Below the pieces are notes generated by a model. That model did not search any database. It had not been told where the DNA came from and worked only from the letters and a program-made list of their open reading frames with translations. Below, piece after piece: positions 5,825 to 60,373 of a stretch of DNA of 64,000 nt. The stretch lies in contig NZ_AXWO01000004.1 of assembly GCF_000482705.1 (NCBI RefSeq), forward strand, positions 124,001 to 188,000. Reading direction: 5' to 3'. Each line of letters starts with the position of its first letter. Position 1 is the first letter of the stretch. Origin of the DNA: Glycomyces arizonensis DSM 44726 (GTDB lineage: Bacteria; Actinomycetota; Actinomycetes; Mycobacteriales; Micromonosporaceae). The translations under genes were made by a program, and so were the position numbers.

Positions 5825-6607
5825 ATGACGAACGATATTCGCATCGCACCCACTGGCCTGCTCACCGGCAAGGTCGTGTTCATCACCGGCGCCAGCCGCG
5901 GGATCGGGGAGGCCGCGGCACGGCTCTTCGCCGAGGAGGGCGCGTCGGTCGTGCTCGCCGCCCGCGGCACGGCCGCCCTCGAGAAGATCGTCGCCGAGAT
6001 CCGCGCCGACGGCGGCACCGCGGACGCGGTGACCGTGGACCTCGCCGACCGCACGAGCATCCGCGCGGCGCTCGACTGCGTCGAGGAACTGCACGGACGG
6101 CTCGACGGCGCGTTCAACAACGGCGCGGCGATCCAGCGGCCCGGGCCGCTCGACGCGACGAGCGAGGAGGACATCGAGCACCAGTTCGCCGTGAACTTTC
6201 GCGGCCACTGGACCGCGATGACGGCCGAGGCCGCCCTCATGCGCCGAAGCGGCGGCGGGGCGATCGTCAACACCTCCAGCATCGGCAGCCGCCGCGCGAA
6301 CCCCGCGCTCCCCGCGTACGGCGCGATGAAGCGCGCGCTCAACAGCATCACCGAGTCCGCCGCCGTGACGTGGGCGCCGCAGGGCATCCGCGTCAACGGC
6401 ATCACGCCCGGCGGCACGGCGACGGCGATGATCGACGAGTGGGAGGCGGCGGTCCCCGGCGTCACGGACCGCATTGTCGCCATGACCCCGCGCGGCCGCA
6501 TGGCCGAGCCCCGCGAGGTGGCCGAGGCCGCCGCGTGGCTGCTCAGCGACCGGGCCTCGGTGGTGACGGGCGCGATCGTGCCGGTGGACGGCGGCGCGGG
6601 AGCCTGA
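5825..6607 (+). CDS. SDR-family NAD(P)-dependent oxidoreductase
   Basis: A 260-residue classical short-chain dehydrogenase/reductase. The cofactor motif is TGASRGIGEAAAR, the structural motif is NNGAA, catalytic Ser is in IVNTSSIGS, and the catalytic YxxxK is YGAMK. The C-terminus ends in the usual VVTGAIVPVDGG. It is divergent from the XRE regulator and probably its target. The 14 bases before the ATG lack a clear Shine-Dalgarno sequence, so the mRNA may be leaderless. The substrate is unknown. Confidence 0.92.
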   Translation: MTNDIRIAPTGLLTGKVVFITGASRGIGEAAARLFAEEGASVVLAARGTAALEKIVAEIRADGGTADAVTVDLADRTSIRAALDCVEELHGRLDGAFNNGAAIQRPGPLDATSEEDIEHQFAVNFRGHWTAMTAEAALMRRSGGGAIVNTSSIGSRRANPALPAYGAMKRALNSITESAAVTWAPQGIRVNGITPGGTATAMIDEWEAAVPGVTDRIVAMTPRGRMAEPREVAEAAAWLLSDRASVVTGAIVPVDGGAGA

Positions 6608-6668
6608 GACGGAGCCGGGGCCTGAGACAGAGCCTGAGACGGAGCCGGGGCCGCCGCGCGGCGGCCCC
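6603..6668. terminator. tandem repeat and bidirectional terminator hairpin
   Basis: The 18-base word CCTGAGACGGAGCCGGGG occurs at 6603-6620 and again at 6633-6650, with a truncated copy between. It runs into the hairpin GGGGCCGCC/GGCGGCCCC (6647-6655 with 6660-6668). The hairpin lies between the convergent SDR and small membrane protein genes and probably ends both transcripts. Confidence 0.6.
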
Positions 6669-6673
6669 GCTGC

Positions 6674-6958
6674 TCACTCCTCGTCCGGCGACCTGCCCAG
6701 GATGCTCGCCCACGCCTTCCGAAGCCGCTCGCGCATGAAGTAGGCGCCGCCGAGGATCAGGACCACGAACGGGATCATGATCGGCAGCACCGTCGTGAAC
6801 CCGATGACCAGCGCGGCCGTCTCAATGCCGATGAAGGACGCGGCGCCCATGTAACCGAGCGTCGAGACCGTCTGCAGGCGGTAGAAGACCAGCGCCATCC
6901 GCTCTCTGAGCCCGACGGGTTTCGGATCCTGGGGGTCGACGTCGTCGTCCGGTTCCAT
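6674..6958 (-). CDS. small membrane protein of unknown function
   Basis: A 94-residue protein with an acidic N-terminus (MEPDDDVDPQD) and two hydrophobic segments, roughly residues 35-55 and 57-75 (YMGAASFIGIETAALVIGFT then PIMIPFVVLILGGAYF). The C-terminal tail is charged. No family is recognised. It is transcribed alone, convergent with the SDR gene and divergent from the VOC gene at 7102. Confidence 0.7.
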   Translation of the reverse strand: MEPDDDVDPQDPKPVGLRERMALVFYRLQTVSTLGYMGAASFIGIETAALVIGFTTVLPIMIPFVVLILGGAYFMRERLRKAWASILGRSPDEE

Positions 6959-7101
6959 CGGTCATGTATACCAGCGCGGCGCGGTTCGGCCCCAGACGAA
7001 ATGGCCGGGTGCGACCGCGGACCGGGGTCACGTGTCGGGGCGCCGTCCGGACCCTCGGAAGCGGCCCGGATTGTCGGTGGGCTCTGGCAGACTTCGGCAC
7101 C

Positions 7102-7518
7102 ATGAGAACTCAAGTCACGTTCGACTGCGCCGATCCGCATGCCCAGGCCGCCTTCTGGGCCCAGGTCTTCCACACCGCCGTCGAGGACCACTCGGCACTG
7201 GTGGACCAGTTGGTCGACGCCGGACGCCTGTCCGCGGAGGAGCGGATCGCGATCGACGGGCGCTCGGCGTTTCGCGACGTCGCCGCCTGCCGCGACCCCG
7301 AAGGCGTCGAGCCGCGGCTATTTTTTCAACGCGTTCCCGAATCCAAGGTCGCCAAGAACCGCGTCCACATCGACGTCCACGTCGACGAAGAGGAGAAGCG
7401 GGCCGAGATCGAGCGCCTCGTCGCCCTCGGCGCGCAGTTCGTGGAGACGCACGCCGACCGCGGTCCGACCACCCACGTCATGCGCGACCCCGAGGGCAAC
7501 GAGTTCTGCCTGCACTAG
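7102..7518 (+). CDS. glyoxalase-like VOC domain protein
   Basis: A 138-residue single VOC-fold protein of the Glyoxalase-like (CalC/PhnB-related) type. It starts with TQVTFDCADPHAQAAFWAQV and ends with THVMRDPEGNEFCLH, which are the conserved strand motifs of this group. The ATG at 7102 is chosen because homologues begin at this point. Upstream frame is open but unsupported. Members of this family often bind or detoxify small molecules, and none has a safely predictable substrate. It runs convergent to the sugar dehydrogenase gene. Confidence 0.88.
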   Translation: MRTQVTFDCADPHAQAAFWAQVFHTAVEDHSALVDQLVDAGRLSAEERIAIDGRSAFRDVAACRDPEGVEPRLFFQRVPESKVAKNRVHIDVHVDEEEKRAEIERLVALGAQFVETHADRGPTTHVMRDPEGNEFCLH

Positions 7519-7542
7519 TTCTTCTGACTGCACCGACGCCGG

Positions 7543-8592
7543 TCAGGCGTCGAGTCTGACGGGCCTCCCGGTGCGGGCGGCCTCGTAGAGCCCGGTGATG
7601 AGGGCGACGGCCTGGCGGTTGTCCTCCAGGCCGACGCGCACGGTCCCCTCGCCGCCGAGGGCGGCGAGGAAGTCGCGGTACTGGTGGACGAGCGCGGCCG
7701 GCTGCGCCGCGCCGGAGCGGTGCTCGTCGGCCTGGTTGGGGCTCTGCCCCTGGACGCCCATGAACACCTCGGGGCGGTCGGCGCCCGCCGGAGTGCGGTG
7801 GAAGAACACGAGCCGGTCGTTCTCGATCACCGCGGACCCCTTGTCGCCGTGGATCTGGAGGCGCGCGGTCAGGCCGGGGTAGACGGCGGTCGAGGCGTGG
7901 ATCGTCCCGACGGCGCCGGAGTCGAAGCGCACCGCCCCCACCGCGACGTCCTCGGTCTCGAGTCGCTCGTGCGCGAGCGTGGCGGTGAACCCGACGACTT
8001 CGACCGGCCGCCCCATGGCGGCCACGAGCAGGTCGACGGTGTGCACGCCCTGGTTCATCAGGGCGCCGCCGCCGTCGAACTCCCACGTGCCGCGCCACGC
8101 GCCCGAGTCGTAATATGTCTGACCTCTCCACCAGTCGATGTTCGCCGTCCCCGACGTGAGGCGGCCGAGCTCCCCGGCGCGGATCGCGTCGATCACGGTC
8201 TCGGTCGCCGGGTCGAAGCGGTGCTGGGAGACCACGGCGACGAGCTTCCCGGTGCGCTGCCTGGCGGCGATGACGCGGTCGATGCGGTCGGCGGTGATGT
8301 CGGCGGGCTTCTCGATCATGACGTGCGCGCCCGCCTCCATCGCCCGGACGGCGGCGTCGCCGTGCAGGCCGGTCGGGGTGCACACGGCCGCGACGTTCGC
8401 GCCGGTGGCGGCGACGGCGGTCTCGATGTCGCCGAAGGCCTTGGCGCCGTAGCGTTCGGCCATGGACCGGGCCCGGTCCGGGTTGAGGTCCACCACGGCG
8501 GCGAGCTCGGCTTGCCCGGGGAACGACTGGAGGGCCTCGGCGTGGCTGGAGGAGATGACGCCCGCGCCGATGATCGCGAAGCGGAAGGTCAT
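7543..8592 (-). CDS. Gfo/Idh/MocA-family oxidoreductase
   Basis: A 349-residue NAD(P)-dependent sugar dehydrogenase-like protein. The N-terminal Rossmann motif is AIIGAGVISSSHAEAL, the conserved EKP motif is MIEKPADIT, and the C-terminal alpha/beta domain contains GGGALMNQGVHTVDLL. It is translationally coupled to the upstream isomerase (ATGA at 8592-8589). The pair is typical of inositol or sugar-lactone catabolic modules. The exact sugar is not determinable. Confidence 0.93.
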   Translation of the reverse strand: MTFRFAIIGAGVISSSHAEALQSFPGQAELAAVVDLNPDRARSMAERYGAKAFGDIETAVAATGANVAAVCTPTGLHGDAAVRAMEAGAHVMIEKPADITADRIDRVIAARQRTGKLVAVVSQHRFDPATETVIDAIRAGELGRLTSGTANIDWWRGQTYYDSGAWRGTWEFDGGGALMNQGVHTVDLLVAAMGRPVEVVGFTATLAHERLETEDVAVGAVRFDSGAVGTIHASTAVYPGLTARLQIHGDKGSAVIENDRLVFFHRTPAGADRPEVFMGVQGQSPNQADEHRSGAAQPAALVHQYRDFLAALGGEGTVRVGLEDNRQAVALITGLYEAARTGRPVRLDA

Positions 8593-52379: not shown

Positions 52380-52961
52380 TCAGGCGGGGCGAGCCTCCTG
52401 TCCGGTGCCGGTGACGGCCTTGAGTTCGTCTATGCCGCTTCGGATCAGCTCGGGCATCTCCCGTGTCTCGGAGTCGTCGAGCCAGCGCTCGAAGGCGACT
52501 CGGAAGACCGCGATGCCGGCCTCGGCGGCGAGGATCGCGGGCAGCTCGGGCGTGCCGCGCTCGCGCAGTGCCGCGGCCATGGTGCGCGCCAGCGACGCCA
52601 GCTTCACCAGCTCGCGCTCCTGGAGCTCCGGGTTCGCGGCGATGACGGCCTGGCGCTTGAGAGCCCGCTCGCGGCGGTCCTGGAGGACCTCGCCGAGCCT
52701 CTCCAGGGCCCGGGCGACCGCCTCGAACGGGGCGGTGCCCTCGGGGGCGGCGCCGACGGCCTCGGTGATGGCGCCGCTGAACGGCTCGGAGCTGAAGAGC
52801 ACCTCGCGTTTGTCGCCGAAGTGCCGGAAGAACGTGCGCTCGGTGAGCCCGGCCCGCTCGGCGATCGCCGCGACGGTGGTCTGCTCGAACCCGCGCTCGG
52901 CGAACAGCTCCAGGGCGGCCTCCTCCAGCCGCCCGCGCGCGTTCGGTTCCCATCTGCCCAT
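52380..52961 (-). CDS. TetR-family transcriptional regulator
   Basis: A 193-residue repressor. HTH: LFAERGFEQTTVAAIAERAG LTERTFFRHFGDKREVLF. The C-terminal helical ligand domain is unspecified. It diverges from the epimerase gene, and two dyads lie between, so it most likely controls that gene and itself. Confidence 0.92.
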   Translation of the reverse strand: MGRWEPNARGRLEEAALELFAERGFEQTTVAAIAERAGLTERTFFRHFGDKREVLFSSEPFSGAITEAVGAAPEGTAPFEAVARALERLGEVLQDRRERALKRQAVIAANPELQERELVKLASLARTMAAALRERGTPELPAILAAEAGIAVFRVAFERWLDDSETREMPELIRSGIDELKAVTGTGQEARPA

Positions 52962-53994: not shown

Positions 53995-54810
53995 CTACTC
54001 GGCGGCGGACGTCCATCGGGCCCTGCGGGCCGTGCGCCGCATGACCCGCAGGAGGATCGGGCCGGTCAAGGCGATGAGCAGCGCCGTCGTCGCCGCCCGG
54101 CCGAGGTCCCACCCCAGGGACGTCGCCAGCGAGTAGGCGAGCAGACGCGAGAGGTTCTCGCCAAGGCCGCCACCGGGGACATATGTGAGGTTCCCCTGCG
54201 TTATCGCGAACGGCCAGAACGACAGGTTCAGCAGCAGGCCGAACGCGAGCGACGCCACCACGGCGTAGGCCGCGAGCATCGCGATCTCGCCGAACCGGCC
54301 GCGCCGGGTCTCCGGCGCGGCCGCGTTCGGTCCCGGCAGCAGCCCCGCGCCCAGACCGACGAACGCCGCCGCGAACATCTGGTACGGCATCCACGGCCCC
54401 ACGCCGCCGGTCAGCAGCGCCGAGGCGAACAGGCCGGTGTTGCCCAGGATGAACCCGAACCCCGGGCCGAACACCCTGCCCGCCAAGATGATCAGGAAGA
54501 ACACCGTCTCGACGCCCGCCGCGCCCGCCCCGAACGGGCGCACCGCCGCCACCACCGCCGACAGCACCCCCAGCATCGCCACCGCCCGTGCGTCCATGCC
54601 GCCCTCGGCGAGCTGGACCAGCGCCACGGCCGTCACGACCGGCAGCAGCAGCGCGAACAGCCACGGCCCCGACGTCGTCTCGGTCAAGGCCCCGCCCGGC
54701 GCGGCCAGCAGCGGCCACGCCGTCGCCACCAGCCCGAACGCCGCCGCGAGCGCCACCGCCACCGCGCCGCGCCAGCGGAAGGCCGGGCGCGGGCTACTCG
54801 GCGCCGTCAT
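53995..54810 (-). CDS. ECF transporter S component, predicted cobalamin-type
   Basis: A 271-residue membrane protein with six or more helices (AVAVALAAAFGLVATAWPLL, FALLLPVVTAVALVQLA, AMLGVLSAVVAAVRPF, VFFLIILAGRVFGPGFGFIL and others). It is the substrate-binding component of an energy-coupling-factor transporter. The AAVRPFGAGAAGVETVFF and LGNTGLFASALLTGGVGPWM phrases are typical of the actinobacterial CbrT-like S components. It is the last gene of the B12-riboswitch operon, overlapping the ATPase gene by 17 bp. The cobalamin specificity is inferred from the riboswitch. Confidence 0.85.
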   Translation of the reverse strand: MTAPSSPRPAFRWRGAVAVALAAAFGLVATAWPLLAAPGGALTETTSGPWLFALLLPVVTAVALVQLAEGGMDARAVAMLGVLSAVVAAVRPFGAGAAGVETVFFLIILAGRVFGPGFGFILGNTGLFASALLTGGVGPWMPYQMFAAAFVGLGAGLLPGPNAAAPETRRGRFGEIAMLAAYAVVASLAFGLLLNLSFWPFAITQGNLTYVPGGGLGENLSRLLAYSLATSLGWDLGRAATTALLIALTGPILLRVMRRTARRARWTSAAE

Positions 54811-56398
54811 CGGCCCCGCCCAGTGCCGCGGCCACCTCGTCGACGGTCAGCCAGCCGGGCAGGATCTTCTCCACCTGCGGTGCGAACATCGGCGAGGCCG
54901 AGACGATGCCCCGCGCCGGGCCGTCGGCCACCACCTGCCCGTCGGAGAGGAGGGCGACCCGGCTCGCGAACTCGGCGACGAACTCGACGTCGTGGGTCGA
55001 CACGATCACGCAGTGGCCCGCCTCGGCCAGCTTGCGCAGCCGCGCCGCGAGAGCGTCCTTGCCCGGGTAGTCGAGCCCCCGCGTCGGCTCGTCGAGCAAG
55101 AGCAGCGGCGGCGCGGCCGTCAGCGTCACCGCGAGGGCCAGCGCCAGCCGCTGGCCCTCGGACAGGTCCCGCGGGTGGGTGCGGTCGTCGATGCCGTCGA
55201 CGAGGTCGGCCAGGATCTTCGCGCACGTCCCCGCCGGGGCGTCGCCGTCGCGGTCGGCGCCCTCGCACTCGCCCGCCACCGTCTCGGCGTAGAGCAGATC
55301 GGCCGGTTCGGCCGGGACCAATCCCGCCAGACTGCGGCGCCTGCCCGGTTTCAGCGCCGCCGGGTCGCCGCCCTCGATCGACACCGATCCGGCCGAGCGC
55401 CTCCCGGTGCCCTGGAGCGCCCACAGCAGGCTCGACTTGCCTGATCCGTTGCGGCCCATGACGGCGATGCGCTCGCCCCTGGCGGCGGTGAGGTCGATGC
55501 CGTCGACCGCCCTGACGCCGGGGTAGTCGACCGTCACGCCGCTCGCCTCCAGCAGCGCCGGGCCGGTCCGTTCCGCCGCCGCGGCCGGTGCCCGCCCCGC
55601 GAGCCGCTCGCGCAGGCCCGACGCGGTGCGACGCGCCTGCCGGATCGTCACCGGCGGCCCCGCCCACCCCGCCAGCTCGCCCAGGCGCACCACCGGCGGC
55701 GCCACCGGGGAGTCCCCCAGCACCTCGCCCAGCGAGCCCGCGGTGACCTTGCCGCCTTGCAGCAGCAGCGCCGAGTCCGCGTACTGCACGACCCGCTCCA
55801 GGCGGTGCTCGGCGAGCAGCACGGTCACGCCGAGGTCGTGGACGAGCCGGTGCAGCGCCGAGAGCACCTCGTCGGCTGCGCCCGGGTCGAGTGCCGACGT
55901 CGGCTCGTCCAGCACCAGCGCCGCCGGGCCCGCCACGAGCGCCGCGCCGATCGCCACCCGCTGCCGCTGCCCCGACGACAGCGCCGCCAGTGCCCGGCCG
56001 CGCACGTCCGACAGGCCGAGGAGGTCCACGATCTCGGTGACGCGCTTGCGCATCGCCGCCTGCCGCAGGCCGAGCTGCTCGGCGGTGTAGGCCAGTTCCA
56101 GCTCCACGTCGTCGGTCACGAAGCCCGCCAAGGGGTCCTGGGCGACGTAGCCGACCGCATCGGCCAGGTCCGCCGGGGACGAGGAGCGCACGCTCCTGCC
56201 CGCCACGGTGATCTCGCCGGTCATCGTCCCGCCGGTGAAGTGCGGGACCAGGCCGTTGACGCACCGCAGCAGCGTCGACTTGCCCGCGCCGGTGGTGCCG
56301 ACGAGCAGGCAGAACTCGCCTTCGGGGACATCGAGGCTCACGTCGTCGAGGATCGTGCGCTCGGCGTACCGGAAGGTCACTCGGTCGAAATCGATCAT
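54794..56398 (-). CDS. fused EcfA-EcfA' ATPase of ECF transporter
   Basis: A 534-residue protein with two ABC ATPase domains in one chain. Domain 1 has LLVGTTGAGKSTLLRCVNGL, Q-loop VAQDP, ALSSGQRQRVAIGAAL and LVLDEPTSALDPG. Domain 2 has VMGRNGSGKSSLLWALQGTG, LSEGQRLALALAVTL and LLLLDEPTRGLDY. Both Walker and signature motifs are intact, though the signatures are LSSGQ and LSEGQ. It energises substrate uptake with EcfT. Its start overlaps the EcfT stop (ATGA at 56398-56395). Confidence 0.93.
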   Translation of the reverse strand: MIDFDRVTFRYAERTILDDVSLDVPEGEFCLLVGTTGAGKSTLLRCVNGLVPHFTGGTMTGEITVAGRSVRSSSPADLADAVGYVAQDPLAGFVTDDVELELAYTAEQLGLRQAAMRKRVTEIVDLLGLSDVRGRALAALSSGQRQRVAIGAALVAGPAALVLDEPTSALDPGAADEVLSALHRLVHDLGVTVLLAEHRLERVVQYADSALLLQGGKVTAGSLGEVLGDSPVAPPVVRLGELAGWAGPPVTIRQARRTASGLRERLAGRAPAAAAERTGPALLEASGVTVDYPGVRAVDGIDLTAARGERIAVMGRNGSGKSSLLWALQGTGRRSAGSVSIEGGDPAALKPGRRRSLAGLVPAEPADLLYAETVAGECEGADRDGDAPAGTCAKILADLVDGIDDRTHPRDLSEGQRLALALAVTLTAAPPLLLLDEPTRGLDYPGKDALAARLRKLAEAGHCVIVSTHDVEFVAEFASRVALLSDGQVVADGPARGIVSASPMFAPQVEKILPGWLTVDEVAAALGGADDGAE

Positions 56399-57498
56399 CG
56401 GGGTCCCGCCTTCGTGGACGTATTGGGCGCCAGCAGTGCCGGCGCGGCGGCGATGAGCACGCCGCAGGCGGCGTACAGGGGCAGCGGCGGCACCGCGAGC
56501 GGGCTCGTCGCGGGCCAGAGCGTCCCCGGCTCGGCGATGCCGCTGAGCACCGTGCCCGCCACGGCGGCCGCGCCCGAGAGCAGCACCGCCCAGTCGCGGC
56601 CGCCGAAGACGTCGGCCCGGTAGCGGGTGCGCGGGACCCGGCGCGAGGCGAACGCGATCCCGAAGACCGCCGCTCCCGCCCCACACGCCAGCAGCGACCA
56701 GGCGACCGGCGCGGGCGTCGCCGAGCCGAGCAGGGCGTACGCCCCCGCGCACAGTCCGAGCATGCCGGTGAGGAGGAACGCGGACGTGGCGCGGCGCGCG
56801 GCGGCCGGGATGTCCGAGGCCCGGCCGTAGCCGCGCGAGGCCATCGCCGCCGCGAGCGCCAGCGACCGGTCCAGCGCGTCGTGCAGCACCGGGACGACGA
56901 CGGTGCGCATCAGGTTCGCCGGACTGCGGCTCACATTGCCGCGCAGCGCCCTCGCCCGGCGGATCCGCGCCACGCTCTCCACGAGCTGCGGCGCCACCGA
57001 CAGCGCCACCACGACCGCGACGCTCACCTCGTACAGCGCGGCCGGGACCGAGCGCAGCAGCCGCCTCGGGCTCGCCAGCGCATTCGCCGCGCCCACGCAC
57101 ACCAGCAGCGTCGCCAGCCGCAGCCCGTCGTACGCCGCCGCCAGGGCGCCCTCGGCGGAGACCGCGCCGCCGAGGCGGAACCCGGCGGCCCACTCCGGCA
57201 ACTGCACCGACGGCAGCTCGAACAGGACGGTCGCGCCGTCGGCGCCGCCGAAGACGACGTAGAACACCATGCGCACCGCGATCGCCGCCGCGCCGATCAG
57301 CAGGAACACCCGATAGGCGCCCGACCACGGCTCGTCGCCGCGGCACCAGGTGACGACGAGCCCGGAGACGGCGACGACGAGCAGCAGCAGCCACGGGTTC
57401 GCGGTGCGGCTGGCGGCGGTGGCGAGCAGCAGCGCCCAGCCCCACCAGGCGACGGGGTGCGCGCCGTGATGCGCGGCGCGGCTGACTGCGGTCTTCAC
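56395..57498 (-). CDS. EcfT transmembrane component of ECF transporter
   Basis: A 367-residue membrane protein. The two coupling-helix motifs with Ala-Arg-Gly cores are visible as RRARALRG and AMASRGYGR. About seven helices include WWGWALLLATAASRTANPWL. Translation starts at GTG (57498), overlapping the DUF4430 stop as GTGA. An additional hydrophobic region in the C-terminal third (about 230-355) extends it beyond typical EcfT. It couples ATP hydrolysis to the S component. Confidence 0.9.
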   Translation of the reverse strand: MKTAVSRAAHHGAHPVAWWGWALLLATAASRTANPWLLLLVVAVSGLVVTWCRGDEPWSGAYRVFLLIGAAAIAVRMVFYVVFGGADGATVLFELPSVQLPEWAAGFRLGGAVSAEGALAAAYDGLRLATLLVCVGAANALASPRRLLRSVPAALYEVSVAVVVALSVAPQLVESVARIRRARALRGNVSRSPANLMRTVVVPVLHDALDRSLALAAAMASRGYGRASDIPAAARRATSAFLLTGMLGLCAGAYALLGSATPAPVAWSLLACGAGAAVFGIAFASRRVPRTRYRADVFGGRDWAVLLSGAAAVAGTVLSGIAEPGTLWPATSPLAVPPLPLYAACGVLIAAAPALLAPNTSTKAGPR

Positions 57499-58097
57499 GA
57501 GCGTTTGTCGCGTCGCAGCCGCCAGACGACGAGTCCGGCGATCAGCGCGAGGACGGCGACCGCGATCAGCCACGTCGGCGACCCGCCGCCGTCGGTCTCG
57601 GTCTCGGCGCCGGTCTCTTCAGCGGCTTGGCCCGCCCCGGCCGCGTCTCCTGGGGCGATGGCGGGCGGCTCGGAGCCGTCGCCGAACACCCACCCTTCGA
57701 CGTCGCCCGCATCGGGGTCGCGCGTGAGGGCGCCGCCGCTGGAGAACACCCACTCGCCCTCATCGTCCGCGTACCAGTACGACCACGACGCGTCGGCCGG
57801 AGGCATCGGGCCGCAGTCGGCCTCGGGGAAGTCGTCGATCCGGCACACCGCGCCGGGGAACGAGCCCACCTGGACGACCGCGAACCCGGCCTGAGCGAGC
57901 GCCTCCATCCCGTCGCCGGGATCGGCGGCGCAGCCGACGGACGGCTCACCCCGCCCGGAGTCGACCACGACGGCCACGCCCTCGCAGCCGCCGCCTTGAG
58001 CGACGGCGGGCGACGCCTGCGCCGAGGCGGCAGCGGCGGCGAGCACCGCGGCCGCCCCGGCGCGGACGATCAGACCGCGCCGGGACAGGCGGGTCAT
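57495..58097 (-). CDS. secreted DUF4430 protein (transcobalamin beta-domain-like), membrane tethered
   Basis: A 200-residue protein. It has an N-terminal Tat-like signal (LSRRGLIVRAGAAAVLAAAA), a beta-grasp-type domain (about 38-135) with SYWYADDEGEWVFSSGGALT and DPDAGDVEGWVFGDGSEPP, and a C-terminal membrane helix (about 176-194) with basic tail WRLRRDKRS. DUF4430 is related in fold to the C-terminal domain of intrinsic factor and transcobalamin. The gene overlaps both neighbours. Binding the lower face of B12 is a prediction from the pairing. Confidence 0.87.
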   Translation of the reverse strand: MTRLSRRGLIVRAGAAAVLAAAAASAQASPAVAQGGGCEGVAVVVDSGRGEPSVGCAADPGDGMEALAQAGFAVVQVGSFPGAVCRIDDFPEADCGPMPPADASWSYWYADDEGEWVFSSGGALTRDPDAGDVEGWVFGDGSEPPAIAPGDAAGAGQAAEETGAETETDGGGSPTWLIAVAVLALIAGLVVWRLRRDKRS

Positions 58098-59338
58098 TCG
58101 CCGCCCTTGCCCTCGGCGGACTCGTCCCGAGCGGCCGCCGCGCCGCGGCGGCCGCGGACGACGAGGAACGCCACGACGGCGACCAGCACCACGGCGGCGC
58201 CCACGATCACCCACGGCACCCAGGCATTGCCGTCGTCGTCGGCCTCCTCGCCCGCCTCGTCACTGGCCGCACCGTTGTCCGCGGACTCGCAGTCTGCGGC
58301 CGGGACGTCGGCGGCCAGATCGGAGGCGTCGAGCTCGGCGAGGCTCTGCCCCGACAGCGGCACGAGGGCCTGCGCGGTCGCCAGGAGCCGCGAGGCCTCC
58401 CCCGTCTCGGGGTCCTCGGGGTCGGAGAAGCGGATCGCGCCCGCGCCGTCCTCGCCGCAGCCGATCTGCAGGCCGATGAGGTAGGCCACGGCCGCCTCAG
58501 CGGCCTCGGTGGCGCCTTCGGACGTCAGCAGCGCCTGCGCGGCCAGCGCCGTCGAGTTCGCGTTCGCGCCGAACCCGCCGTCGAAGGAGCCGTCCTCGCC
58601 CTGGTGGTCCTTGAGCCACCCGAGCGCGCCCTCGCGGGCGTCGGCCCCGTCCTCGCCGATGGCGGTCAGCGCCGAGACGGCGGTGCCGGTCGTGTCGGGG
58701 TCGCCGGTGCACGAGCCCGACTCGGGCACGGCGTAGGAGAAGCCGCCGTCGTCGCACTGGGCGGCCAGGAGCGCGGCGGTGACCGCTTCGCTCACGCCGT
58801 CCTCGGTGCGCGAGAGGCCGAGCGCGGCCCACGACAGCGAGCCGCCGTCGAGCCCTTCGACCGAGGCCTCGGCGACCTCGTCGGCGAGCTTGACGCCGCC
58901 GAAGTCCGTCGGGTCGCCGCCCGCGGTGGCCACGACGTACATGACCTTCCCGGCCGAGCCGAGTGCGATCGGGGCGTCCTCGCCCTCGGCGGGGTAGACA
59001 TAGGAGCCCAGCGTGTCCGGGTCGTTGATCCACTCGAGGCTCGCCTGCACCTGGTCGCCGCCGACGCCCGCGGCCATGAGGCCGATGAGGGAGTCGAGGG
59101 TGGCGCTGACGTTGGGCGCGCCGTTGAACTCGAAGTGGTCGCCGCTGGACTGGGCGGCGAGCCAGGAGGCGGCGGCCGCGGCGGGGTCGTCGTACGGGGC
59201 GTCGTCCTGGGCGTGGGCCGGGGCGGCCGCCGCGAAGGCGACGACGGGGAGGACCGCGGCGGCGGCCGCGGTGCGCAGCAGCCCGCGGCGGAGCGGGCGG
59301 GGCATGGATTTGCGCAGTCGTGTCGACTGGTGGCGCAT
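58094..59338 (-). CDS. secreted alpha/alpha-barrel protein (prenyltransferase/terpene-cyclase-repeat, transcobalamin alpha-domain-like)
   Basis: A 414-residue protein. It has an N-terminal signal (RRGLLRTAAAAAVLPVVAFA, cleavage near AHA), then repeated helical hairpins with ASWLAAQSSGD, LLAAQCDDGGFSY, LGWLKDHQGEDGSFDGGFG and YLIGLQIGCGEDGAGAIRF. Cysteines probably form disulfides. A linker rich in Asp/Ala/Glu precedes a membrane helix (about 371-391). The repeats match the squalene-cyclase/prenyltransferase barrel, but no catalytic DxDD-type motif is seen, which suggests a binding role. It is the first gene after the B12 riboswitch. Confidence 0.87.
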   Translation of the reverse strand: MRHQSTRLRKSMPRPLRRGLLRTAAAAAVLPVVAFAAAAPAHAQDDAPYDDPAAAAASWLAAQSSGDHFEFNGAPNVSATLDSLIGLMAAGVGGDQVQASLEWINDPDTLGSYVYPAEGEDAPIALGSAGKVMYVVATAGGDPTDFGGVKLADEVAEASVEGLDGGSLSWAALGLSRTEDGVSEAVTAALLAAQCDDGGFSYAVPESGSCTGDPDTTGTAVSALTAIGEDGADAREGALGWLKDHQGEDGSFDGGFGANANSTALAAQALLTSEGATEAAEAAVAYLIGLQIGCGEDGAGAIRFSDPEDPETGEASRLLATAQALVPLSGQSLAELDASDLAADVPAADCESADNGAASDEAGEEADDDGNAWVPWVIVGAAVVLVAVVAFLVVRGRRGAAAARDESAEGKGGE

Positions 59339-59439
59339 TGCCTGACCTTTCTGAAGCGCGGGCGAGGTCTTCGGCAGGCGGCGGCGCCGCAAGCGCCTGT
59401 AGACCACGACAGGCGTTGGAAATGGAAATGGCGGCTTGT

Positions 59440-59580
59440 GGGCATTCGGGCTCACGCGGGTGGACCGAGACGACTGAGAGGTTGCTCGGATGGTGTTCGA
59501 AAACGAACCGCGACTACCGCTGCGGGTCAGCGCCGGCTTCCGACCGGACTTCCCCCACAGGACGCCTGTTGAGTTTGCGT
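59440..59580 (-). ncRNA. cobalamin riboswitch
   Basis: Read on the minus strand, this leader has the conserved B12 core GCTGACCCGCAGCGGTA (59531-59515), preceded by GGAAGTCCGGTCGGAAGCC. It ends with GTGAGCCCGAATGCC (59455-59441), a match to the late conserved AGCCNGA..CC segment. It begins a few bases after a clear promoter and about 100 bp before the first gene of the ECF operon. A CGCCTGT/ACAGGCG hairpin lies between riboswitch and start codon (about 59418-59394) and may be the expression platform. Confidence 0.82.
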
Positions 59581-59582
59581 TC

Positions 59583-59612
59583 ATTCTGTCGCTCGGCACT
59601 ACAGGGTGTCAA
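59583..59612 (-). promoter_or_regulatory. promoter of the B12 operon
   Basis: Minus-strand TTGACA (59612-59607) and CAGAAT (59588-59583) are separated by 18 bp. Transcription is predicted to start about 59576, at the beginning of the riboswitch. Confidence 0.65.
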
Positions 59613-59677
59613 GGCGGTCGCGCTGTGAGTGGAGCCGTTCACTGCGCTCGGTGGCGTGCGCGGCGGCACACAAGTCA

Positions 59678-59707
59678 TTGACCCATAGCACCGGGTGTCG
59701 ATACGGT
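59678..59707 (+). promoter_or_regulatory. promoter of TetR gene, likely leaderless
   Basis: TTGACC (59678-59683) and TACGGT (59702-59707) with an 18-bp spacer end 7 bp before the GTG start at 59714, so transcription and translation would begin at the same base. Confidence 0.6.
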
Positions 59708-59713
59708 GCAGGC

Positions 59714-60373
59714 GTGAGCAGAAACAAAAACGCCGATTTGGACAGAGTGCTCCGCGCCGCCACCAGGGCGTTCCTGGAACGCGGATTCGCGGCGACCTCC
59801 ATGTCGGACCTCGTGGCCGCCACGGGCATGAACCGGGCGGGCCTCTATTCGGCCTTCGGTTCGAAGCACCAGCTGTACATCACCGCGCTGGCCCGCTACC
59901 GCGAGGACACCGAGCCCGAGATCCGCGCGATCACCCGCCGCGCCCTGGACCGGCCGCCCCCCGAGCGCCTGGACGCCCCCAGGGTCGTCGGCGACATCCT
60001 CGAAGTGGTGGCGCGGCACAGCAAGGAGGGCGGGTTCGTCGTCCGCGCGGCCGTGGAGCTGGCCGACGACCCGGCCACCATGCGGCGCGTCCAGGAGGCG
60101 TGGTCGGAGCTCGAACGCGACCTGGCCATGATCCTGGCGCGCGCCAACGACGAAGGGGAGATGGCCGAACCGGTCGACCCCGGGCGGCTGGCGAGGACGC
60201 TGCTGGTGTTCATCCAGGGCGCGTTCGTGGTCGGGCACGCCGACGAGGACGACGGCCGCCTCGACGACGCCGCGGCCGGACTAGTGGCGCTCCTCGACCG
60301 TCACAGACCCCCGGCCACCGCAGAACCGATCCGGAGCCAGGCCCCCAACGACGCCTTACTCAGCGATTCATAG
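59714..60373 (+). CDS. TetR-family transcriptional regulator
   Basis: A 219-residue regulator. HTH: FLERGFAATSMSDLVAATGM NRAGLYSAFGSKHQLYITAL. The C-terminal domain is of the TetR_C_16-like acyl/ligand class. The GTG at 59714 is preferred because the promoter ends immediately before it. The frame is open further upstream but lacks signals. Its last 73 bp overlap the 3' end of the convergent MinD-like gene. Its target is unknown. The divergent B12 operon has no obvious dyad for it. Confidence 0.9.
   Translation: MSRNKNADLDRVLRAATRAFLERGFAATSMSDLVAATGMNRAGLYSAFGSKHQLYITALARYREDTEPEIRAITRRALDRPPPERLDAPRVVGDILEVVARHSKEGGFVVRAAVELADDPATMRRVQEAWSELERDLAMILARANDEGEMAEPVDPGRLARTLLVFIQGAFVVGHADEDDGRLDDAAAGLVALLDRHRPPATAEPIRSQAPNDALLSDS

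Follow-up and report, generated by a model that had tools for sequence, protein, structure and literature searches.

How does a Gram-positive bacterium capture vitamin B12 outside its cell? This largely open field is addressed by a locus of Glycomyces arizonensis DSM 44726, in which two membrane-tethered surface proteins are encoded together with an energy-coupling factor (ECF) importer. The locus runs from position 59612 down to 53995 on the minus strand of the 64,000-nucleotide stretch of DNA analysed here (the window). Which transporters carry B12 and its precursors has been called an open problem (PMC6593275). We read the locus, with a probability of about 0.78, as an importer of vitamin B12 (corrinoids) in which the two surface proteins capture B12 and the ECF transporter, composed of an S component, EcfT and a fused EcfA-EcfA' ATPase, takes it in.

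The operon and its cobalamin riboswitch

The regulatory element, the gene set, the predicted export and anchoring, the folds and the conservation of the locus are established by sequence analysis and structural models. The elements are as follows.

59583..59612, minus strand: sigma-70-like promoter, TTGACA-18-CAGAAT (10 of 12 matches; one found, against a mean of 0.0 in shuffled sequences)
59420..59577, minus strand: cobalamin riboswitch aptamer, RF00174 (33.7 bits, full-length match 1-189)
59346..59352, minus strand: ribosome-binding site AGAAAGG of the first gene, from the sequence; its predicted pairing with an upstream GACCT is weak, with a shuffle z-score that is not significant
58094..59338, minus strand: P0001, predicted exported, membrane-tethered alpha/alpha-toroid protein, SCO2321-like (SCO2321_fam 2.1e-16, below cut-off)
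58136..58231, minus strand: predicted C-terminal membrane anchor of P0001 (hydropathy; transmembrane residues 370-401)
57495..58097, minus strand: P0002, predicted exported, membrane-tethered protein resembling SLBB and transcobalamin beta domains, SCO2322-like (SCO2322_fam 1e-5, below cut-off; predicted structure and fold search)
57645..58010, minus strand: beta-grasp domain of P0002, in which a beta-hairpin follows the helix and four cysteines are invariant (AlphaFold, Foldseek, conservation)
56395..57498, minus strand: P0003, EcfT of the CbiQ family (PF02361 1.5e-9, residues 21-226; hydropathy)
54794..56398, minus strand: P0004, fused EcfA-EcfA' ATPase (two ABC_tran stretches, 2.4e-47; TIGR04521, 6.9e-76)
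53995..54810, minus strand: P0005, ECF S component (PF12822, ECF_trnsprt, 4.4e-5, below cut-off; conserved family A1)

In reading order, the promoter is followed by the riboswitch and then by five genes, P0001 to P0005, which overlap successively by 4, 4, 4 and 17 bases. The promoter scan, the Rfam search and the gene coordinates agree with the arrangement proposed in an earlier, sequence-only reading of the window. TetR-like regulators, recognized by sequence inspection, are located on both flanks (52380-52961, minus strand; 59606-60373, plus strand), with no sign of operon membership.

The cobalamin aptamer, expected by the earlier reading within 59420-59600, scores above the RF00174 gathering score of 31.5 bits and is the sole Rfam match in the window. 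Folding of the expression platform in the leader gave no signal above shuffled sequences. In 36 of 40 homologous loci, which range from the host's own genus to distant families, an RF00174 aptamer likewise stands directly upstream and on the strand of the genes; some of the 36 score below the gathering score. Among 14 further named loci, eight show a cobalamin-clan aptamer (RF00174, AdoCbl or AdoCbl-II) ahead of the unit, and none shows a riboswitch of any other vitamin. Homologous operons were thus not found under a different vitamin riboswitch. A role in the import of another vitamin was considered and rejected.

The two exported proteins

P0001 and P0002 both carry a predicted signal peptide and a predicted C-terminal transmembrane helix, in agreement with the earlier description of the first two proteins as exported and membrane-tethered. 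Between these elements lies a toroid in P0001 and a beta-grasp domain in P0002, whose transmembrane helix spans residues 171-196 (sequence and hydropathy). The signal peptide of P0002 (residues 5-12) contains SRRGLIV, resembling a twin-arginine motif, and the P0001 counterpart is LRRGLLR; judged from these motifs, export of both proteins by the twin-arginine (Tat) route is possible.

For P0002, no Pfam family scores above its cut-off. The protein had been labelled a DUF4430 protein, but the Pfam hidden Markov model (HMM) of that family (PF14478) matches neither P0002, nor any of 50 homologues, nor any protein in the host genome. An hhalign comparison of the P0002 family profile with true DUF4430 proteins, on the other hand, gave a probability of 85% (E 6.8e-6), and the label therefore fails by HMM and holds by fold and profile-profile comparison. 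The AlphaFold model of the domain, built with 50 homologues (pLDDT 90.3, pTM 0.85), shows two strands, a helix, a hairpin and three strands (b-b-a-b-b-b-b-b). This is the topology of the transcobalamin-like SLBB clade (PMC1796856), which places P0002 in that clade. In a Foldseek search of 350,542 PDB chains, the top seven matches of the model are all transcobalamin, and haptocorrin and human transcobalamin 2BB5 appear within the first 13. The probabilities are 0.72-0.97 for transcobalamin and haptocorrin versus at most 0.25 for other folds nearby. Four cysteines are invariant across the P0002 family. Neither for the window proteins nor for their homologues did the Pfam matches listed include the eukaryotic cobalamin-binding family. 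In one genome (L100 and G229:C1:3656980-3659127), a toroid and a true Pfam DUF4430 protein come after an SLBB-T-A-S operon, so that the two beta-grasp families share a neighbourhood.

In P0001 alone the toroid stays under Pfam cut-offs and becomes clear only as a family profile, which matches the squalene-hopene cyclase fold (6e-41); animal B12 carriers are not among the best 60 matches of this profile. For a modelled natural fusion, the toroid part matches terpene cyclases first and transcobalamin with a probability of 1.0 (E 1.9e-4, Foldseek), the order SLBB-toroid of this fusion being swapped relative to transcobalamin, which prevented a two-domain superposition. The profile similarity to cyclases would fit a secreted enzyme, related to terpene cyclases or prenyltransferases, that stands beside a B12 transporter by chance. 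However, the catalytic motif DXDD is present in 0 of 115 toroid family members (the aligned position in P0001 reads DPDT), in line with the earlier description of an alpha/alpha-barrel lacking catalytic motifs. The toroid is also predicted to be exported, is fused to SLBB in relatives and has its own cobalamin riboswitch where the genes are unlinked. An enzyme of this kind is hardly credible and was rejected.

To what extent do the two proteins belong together? The S component profile retrieved at least 589 relatives, including Lentzea, Streptomyces, Amycolatopsis, Janibacter and Nocardioides. T, A and S genes occur together in 109 loci, sampled via the S component or the toroid. SLBB is present in 98 of these, the toroid in 92 and both in 88, and several of the incomplete loci end at contig edges. 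The gene order toroid-SLBB-T-A-S is conserved, and the operon is pan-actinobacterial. Sampling with the SLBB profile found the family in 66 of 396 genomes of the phylum, with a toroid within about 5 kb in at least about 52 of the 66.

The window carries the toroid and the beta domain on two genes, and one chain is seen only in relatives such as L125 and L136. Fusions in the order SLBB-toroid occur in Crossiella L136, L144, L164 and L166 and in many Streptomyces. The animal order, toroid-SLBB, is found in L125, from a Nocardioidaceae metagenome-assembled genome, as a chain of 585 amino acids that has a single signal peptide and a single anchor. The toroid plus SLBB alignment consists of natural fusions; a MAFFT alignment of single-domain rows on L125 put toroid rows on SLBB columns and was discarded.

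A B12 importer may also work without a joint clamp, if B12 binding falls to one protein (probably SLBB) while its partner serves for structure, docking or wall anchoring, or if the two act sequentially. Such an arrangement would explain why SLBB stands beside ECF genes without a toroid in G068, G282, G325, G400 and G120, and why SLBB copies outnumber toroid copies in several operons. It is harder to reconcile with fusions that recur in both domain orders, with paired duplications (two toroid-SLBB pairs per operon in L087 and L092) and with the co-regulation of toroid and SLBB when they are unlinked, and we regard it as rather unlikely. The unlinked state was found in four genomes, where the two genes lie far apart or on different contigs and each has a separate cobalamin riboswitch, six of the eight aptamers scoring 28 to 31 bits, slightly under the gathering cut-off.

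G160: toroid and SLBB riboswitches at C13:69380 and C19:39627
G192: toroid and SLBB riboswitches at C10:51725 and C1:105241
G224: toroid and SLBB riboswitches at C78:39428 and C31:7311
G341: toroid and SLBB riboswitches at C1:954667 and C1:1812771

Locus L085 (G030:C3:643759-646462) shows a further arrangement: a pair of toroid and SLBB genes and, facing it convergently from the opposite strand, a solitary SLBB gene, with one cobalamin riboswitch each and no T or S gene inside the 12 kb examined.

The transporter, the host and the ligand

The ECF set in the operon is complete, with EcfT, two ABC ATPase domains and an S component (Pfam, TIGR04521), and the importer assignment made earlier holds, the S component match being below cut-off. 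P0003 extends about 140 residues beyond the C-terminal end of the CbiQ/EcfT domain, with further hydrophobic segments. This long EcfT and the fused EcfA-EcfA' had been taken for peculiarities of this genome; both are found across the family and thus are not. The earlier assignment of P0005 as a CbrT-like S component is likewise unsupported, since a profile built from 14 S components retrieves none of the solved ones from the PDB. P0005 has no CbiM match in Pfam.

In four genomes (families f17 and f22; three genera), an SLBB lipoprotein is encoded upstream of an ECF transporter made as a single polypeptide of 1006-1134 amino acids in the order T-A-A'-S, with no adjacent toroid and no RF00174 match in these genomes. 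Such a natural one-chain transporter would bear on the model by which the S component departs from the module in the course of transport.

L235:5605-8625, minus strand: one-chain T-A-A'-S
L236:5614-8811, minus strand: one-chain T-A-A'-S
L237:5339-8743, minus strand: one-chain T-A-A'-S
L238:5034-8060, minus strand: one-chain T-A-A'-S

The host genome contains B12-dependent metH. Besides the cobalamin riboswitch in the window it has just one more (74 bits), located in front of metE, the B12-independent methionine synthase, and a search for cobN, cbiC and cobS in the genome found none of the three.

L193:5754-6129 (G000:C4:29753-30128), plus strand: metE riboswitch, followed by metE at 6172-8436, plus strand

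Taken together, these genes indicate that the host uses B12 and is very probably unable to make or finish it, which argues for the import of complete cobamides and against that of cobalt or precursors. From its gene content, the host probably depends on importing B12 in complete form.

A cobalt importer of the CbiMNQO/ECF type under a cobalamin riboswitch deserves mention here, because EcfT falls within the CbiQ family and cobalt transporters are frequently controlled by cobalamin riboswitches (PMC3766115). However, the S component is not CbiM and the surface proteins are transcobalamin-like. Furthermore, without CobN and CbiC the host could not insert cobalt into a corrin. The operon is unlikely to import cobalt, and this explanation, to which we leave a very small chance, was rejected. 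Uptake of a B12 precursor or fragment, such as cobinamide, alpha-ribazole or dimethylbenzimidazole, instead of complete cobamides would have parallels in CbrT and BtuFCD, which take up cobinamide too (PMC5997447, PMC6593275). It appears improbable, given that imported precursors could not be finished without CobS and that whole cobalamin is the known ligand of the transcobalamin-like scaffold. The operon is very likely a corrinoid importer.

Several observations weigh against a B12 importer with two capture proteins. No kinship in sequence links P0005 to CbrT, the proven B12 S component. The Foldseek matches of P0002 to transcobalamin have weak E-values (0.08 to 0.7), and the SLBB family profile searched against PDB sequences gave no link to transcobalamin, only chance matches, mostly to antibodies. 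Four of the genomes with SLBB and ECF genes and no toroid (G068, G282, G325 and G400) have no RF00174 match genome-wide, so SLBB there may act alone or bind another ligand.

For the B12 importer that we favour, the following course can be proposed. Low intracellular cobalamin would allow the riboswitch to permit expression of the operon. The toroid and SLBB proteins would stand outside the membrane, each anchored by its C-terminal transmembrane helix, and would most likely hold B12 between them as in transcobalamin. They would then deliver B12 to the S component. Its ATP-driven uptake, as known for ECF-CbrT (PMC5997447), would be powered by the fused EcfA-A' ATPase together with EcfT, and MetH would use it inside the cell. 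We infer the identity of the ligand, the joint clamp and the hand-over to the S component.

Relation to known systems

To our knowledge, ECF transporters are understood to operate without substrate-binding proteins, the S component alone usually capturing the vitamin. A surface capture device on such a transporter would broaden the view of ECF transport. ECF-CbrT of Lactobacillus delbrueckii is, like the system in the window, an ECF-type importer assigned to B12 (PMC5997447). CbrT draws on an ECF module that other S components use as well, and no surface binding proteins are known for it, whereas T, A-A' and S in the window are dedicated and encoded in one operon. A second parallel comes from the freshwater acI actinobacteria, which are B12-auxotrophic and have an ECF locus with a cobalamin riboswitch proposed for B12 import (Kang et al., 2017; PMC5301498). 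The passage of that paper describing the locus names no surface proteins, and the parallel is drawn from that description.

P0001 and P0002 are remote homologues of the SCO2321 and SCO2322 families (NCBIfam NF053823 and NF040672), whose Streptomyces copies have the same gene order. Both proteins score under the curated cut-offs of these families, which are named without a function. A literature search found no functional study of SCO2321-2325 or of DUF4430 with ECF, and no experimental test of the prediction of Burroughs et al. described below. If the pair binds B12, the unnamed SCO2321 and SCO2322 families, common in actinobacteria, would gain a function.

The idea of B12 scavenging by toroid plus SLBB proteins is itself not new. 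Burroughs et al. (2007) predicted that bacterial toroid plus SLBB proteins in CbiO/CbiQ operons scavenge B12 and are the source of the animal proteins (PMC1796856). Their clade and the proteins in the window are alike in the two domains, export, EcfA/EcfT-type neighbours, predicted B12 scavenging and fusions in both orders. The Burroughs clade was reported in low-GC Gram-positives, planctomycetes and some archaea, whereas the present family is actinobacterial and missed by Pfam DUF4430. It further differs in its two chains, its own S component, the riboswitch evidence and the four invariant cysteines. The sequence-only reading of a B12 clamp importer is supported in part: it stands as to a B12-regulated uptake operon, two carrier folds and an ECF importer, but not as to CbrT kinship and DUF4430 by HMM. 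What is new is a widespread actinobacterial family with split chains, the riboswitch evidence assembled for it and the dedicated surface proteins of an ECF importer. The case for such a system is much stronger here than in 2007. There is, in our estimate, an even chance that these represent a class of ECF importers with a dedicated two-protein extracellular clamp, a split counterpart of the animal B12 carriers whose domains were repeatedly fused, in both orders, in actinobacteria.

If the pair binds B12, the 2007 prediction would become a testable origin of intrinsic factor and transcobalamin. The toroid and the beta-grasp domain with a beta-hairpin insert are shared with animal transcobalamin, haptocorrin and intrinsic factor, and transcobalamin and haptocorrin are also the best structural matches of P0002. 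Transcobalamin sandwiches B12 between its two domains (PMC1796856). The animal carriers are taken up by receptor endocytosis, whereas the system in the window would use two membrane-tethered chains to feed an ATP-driven importer.

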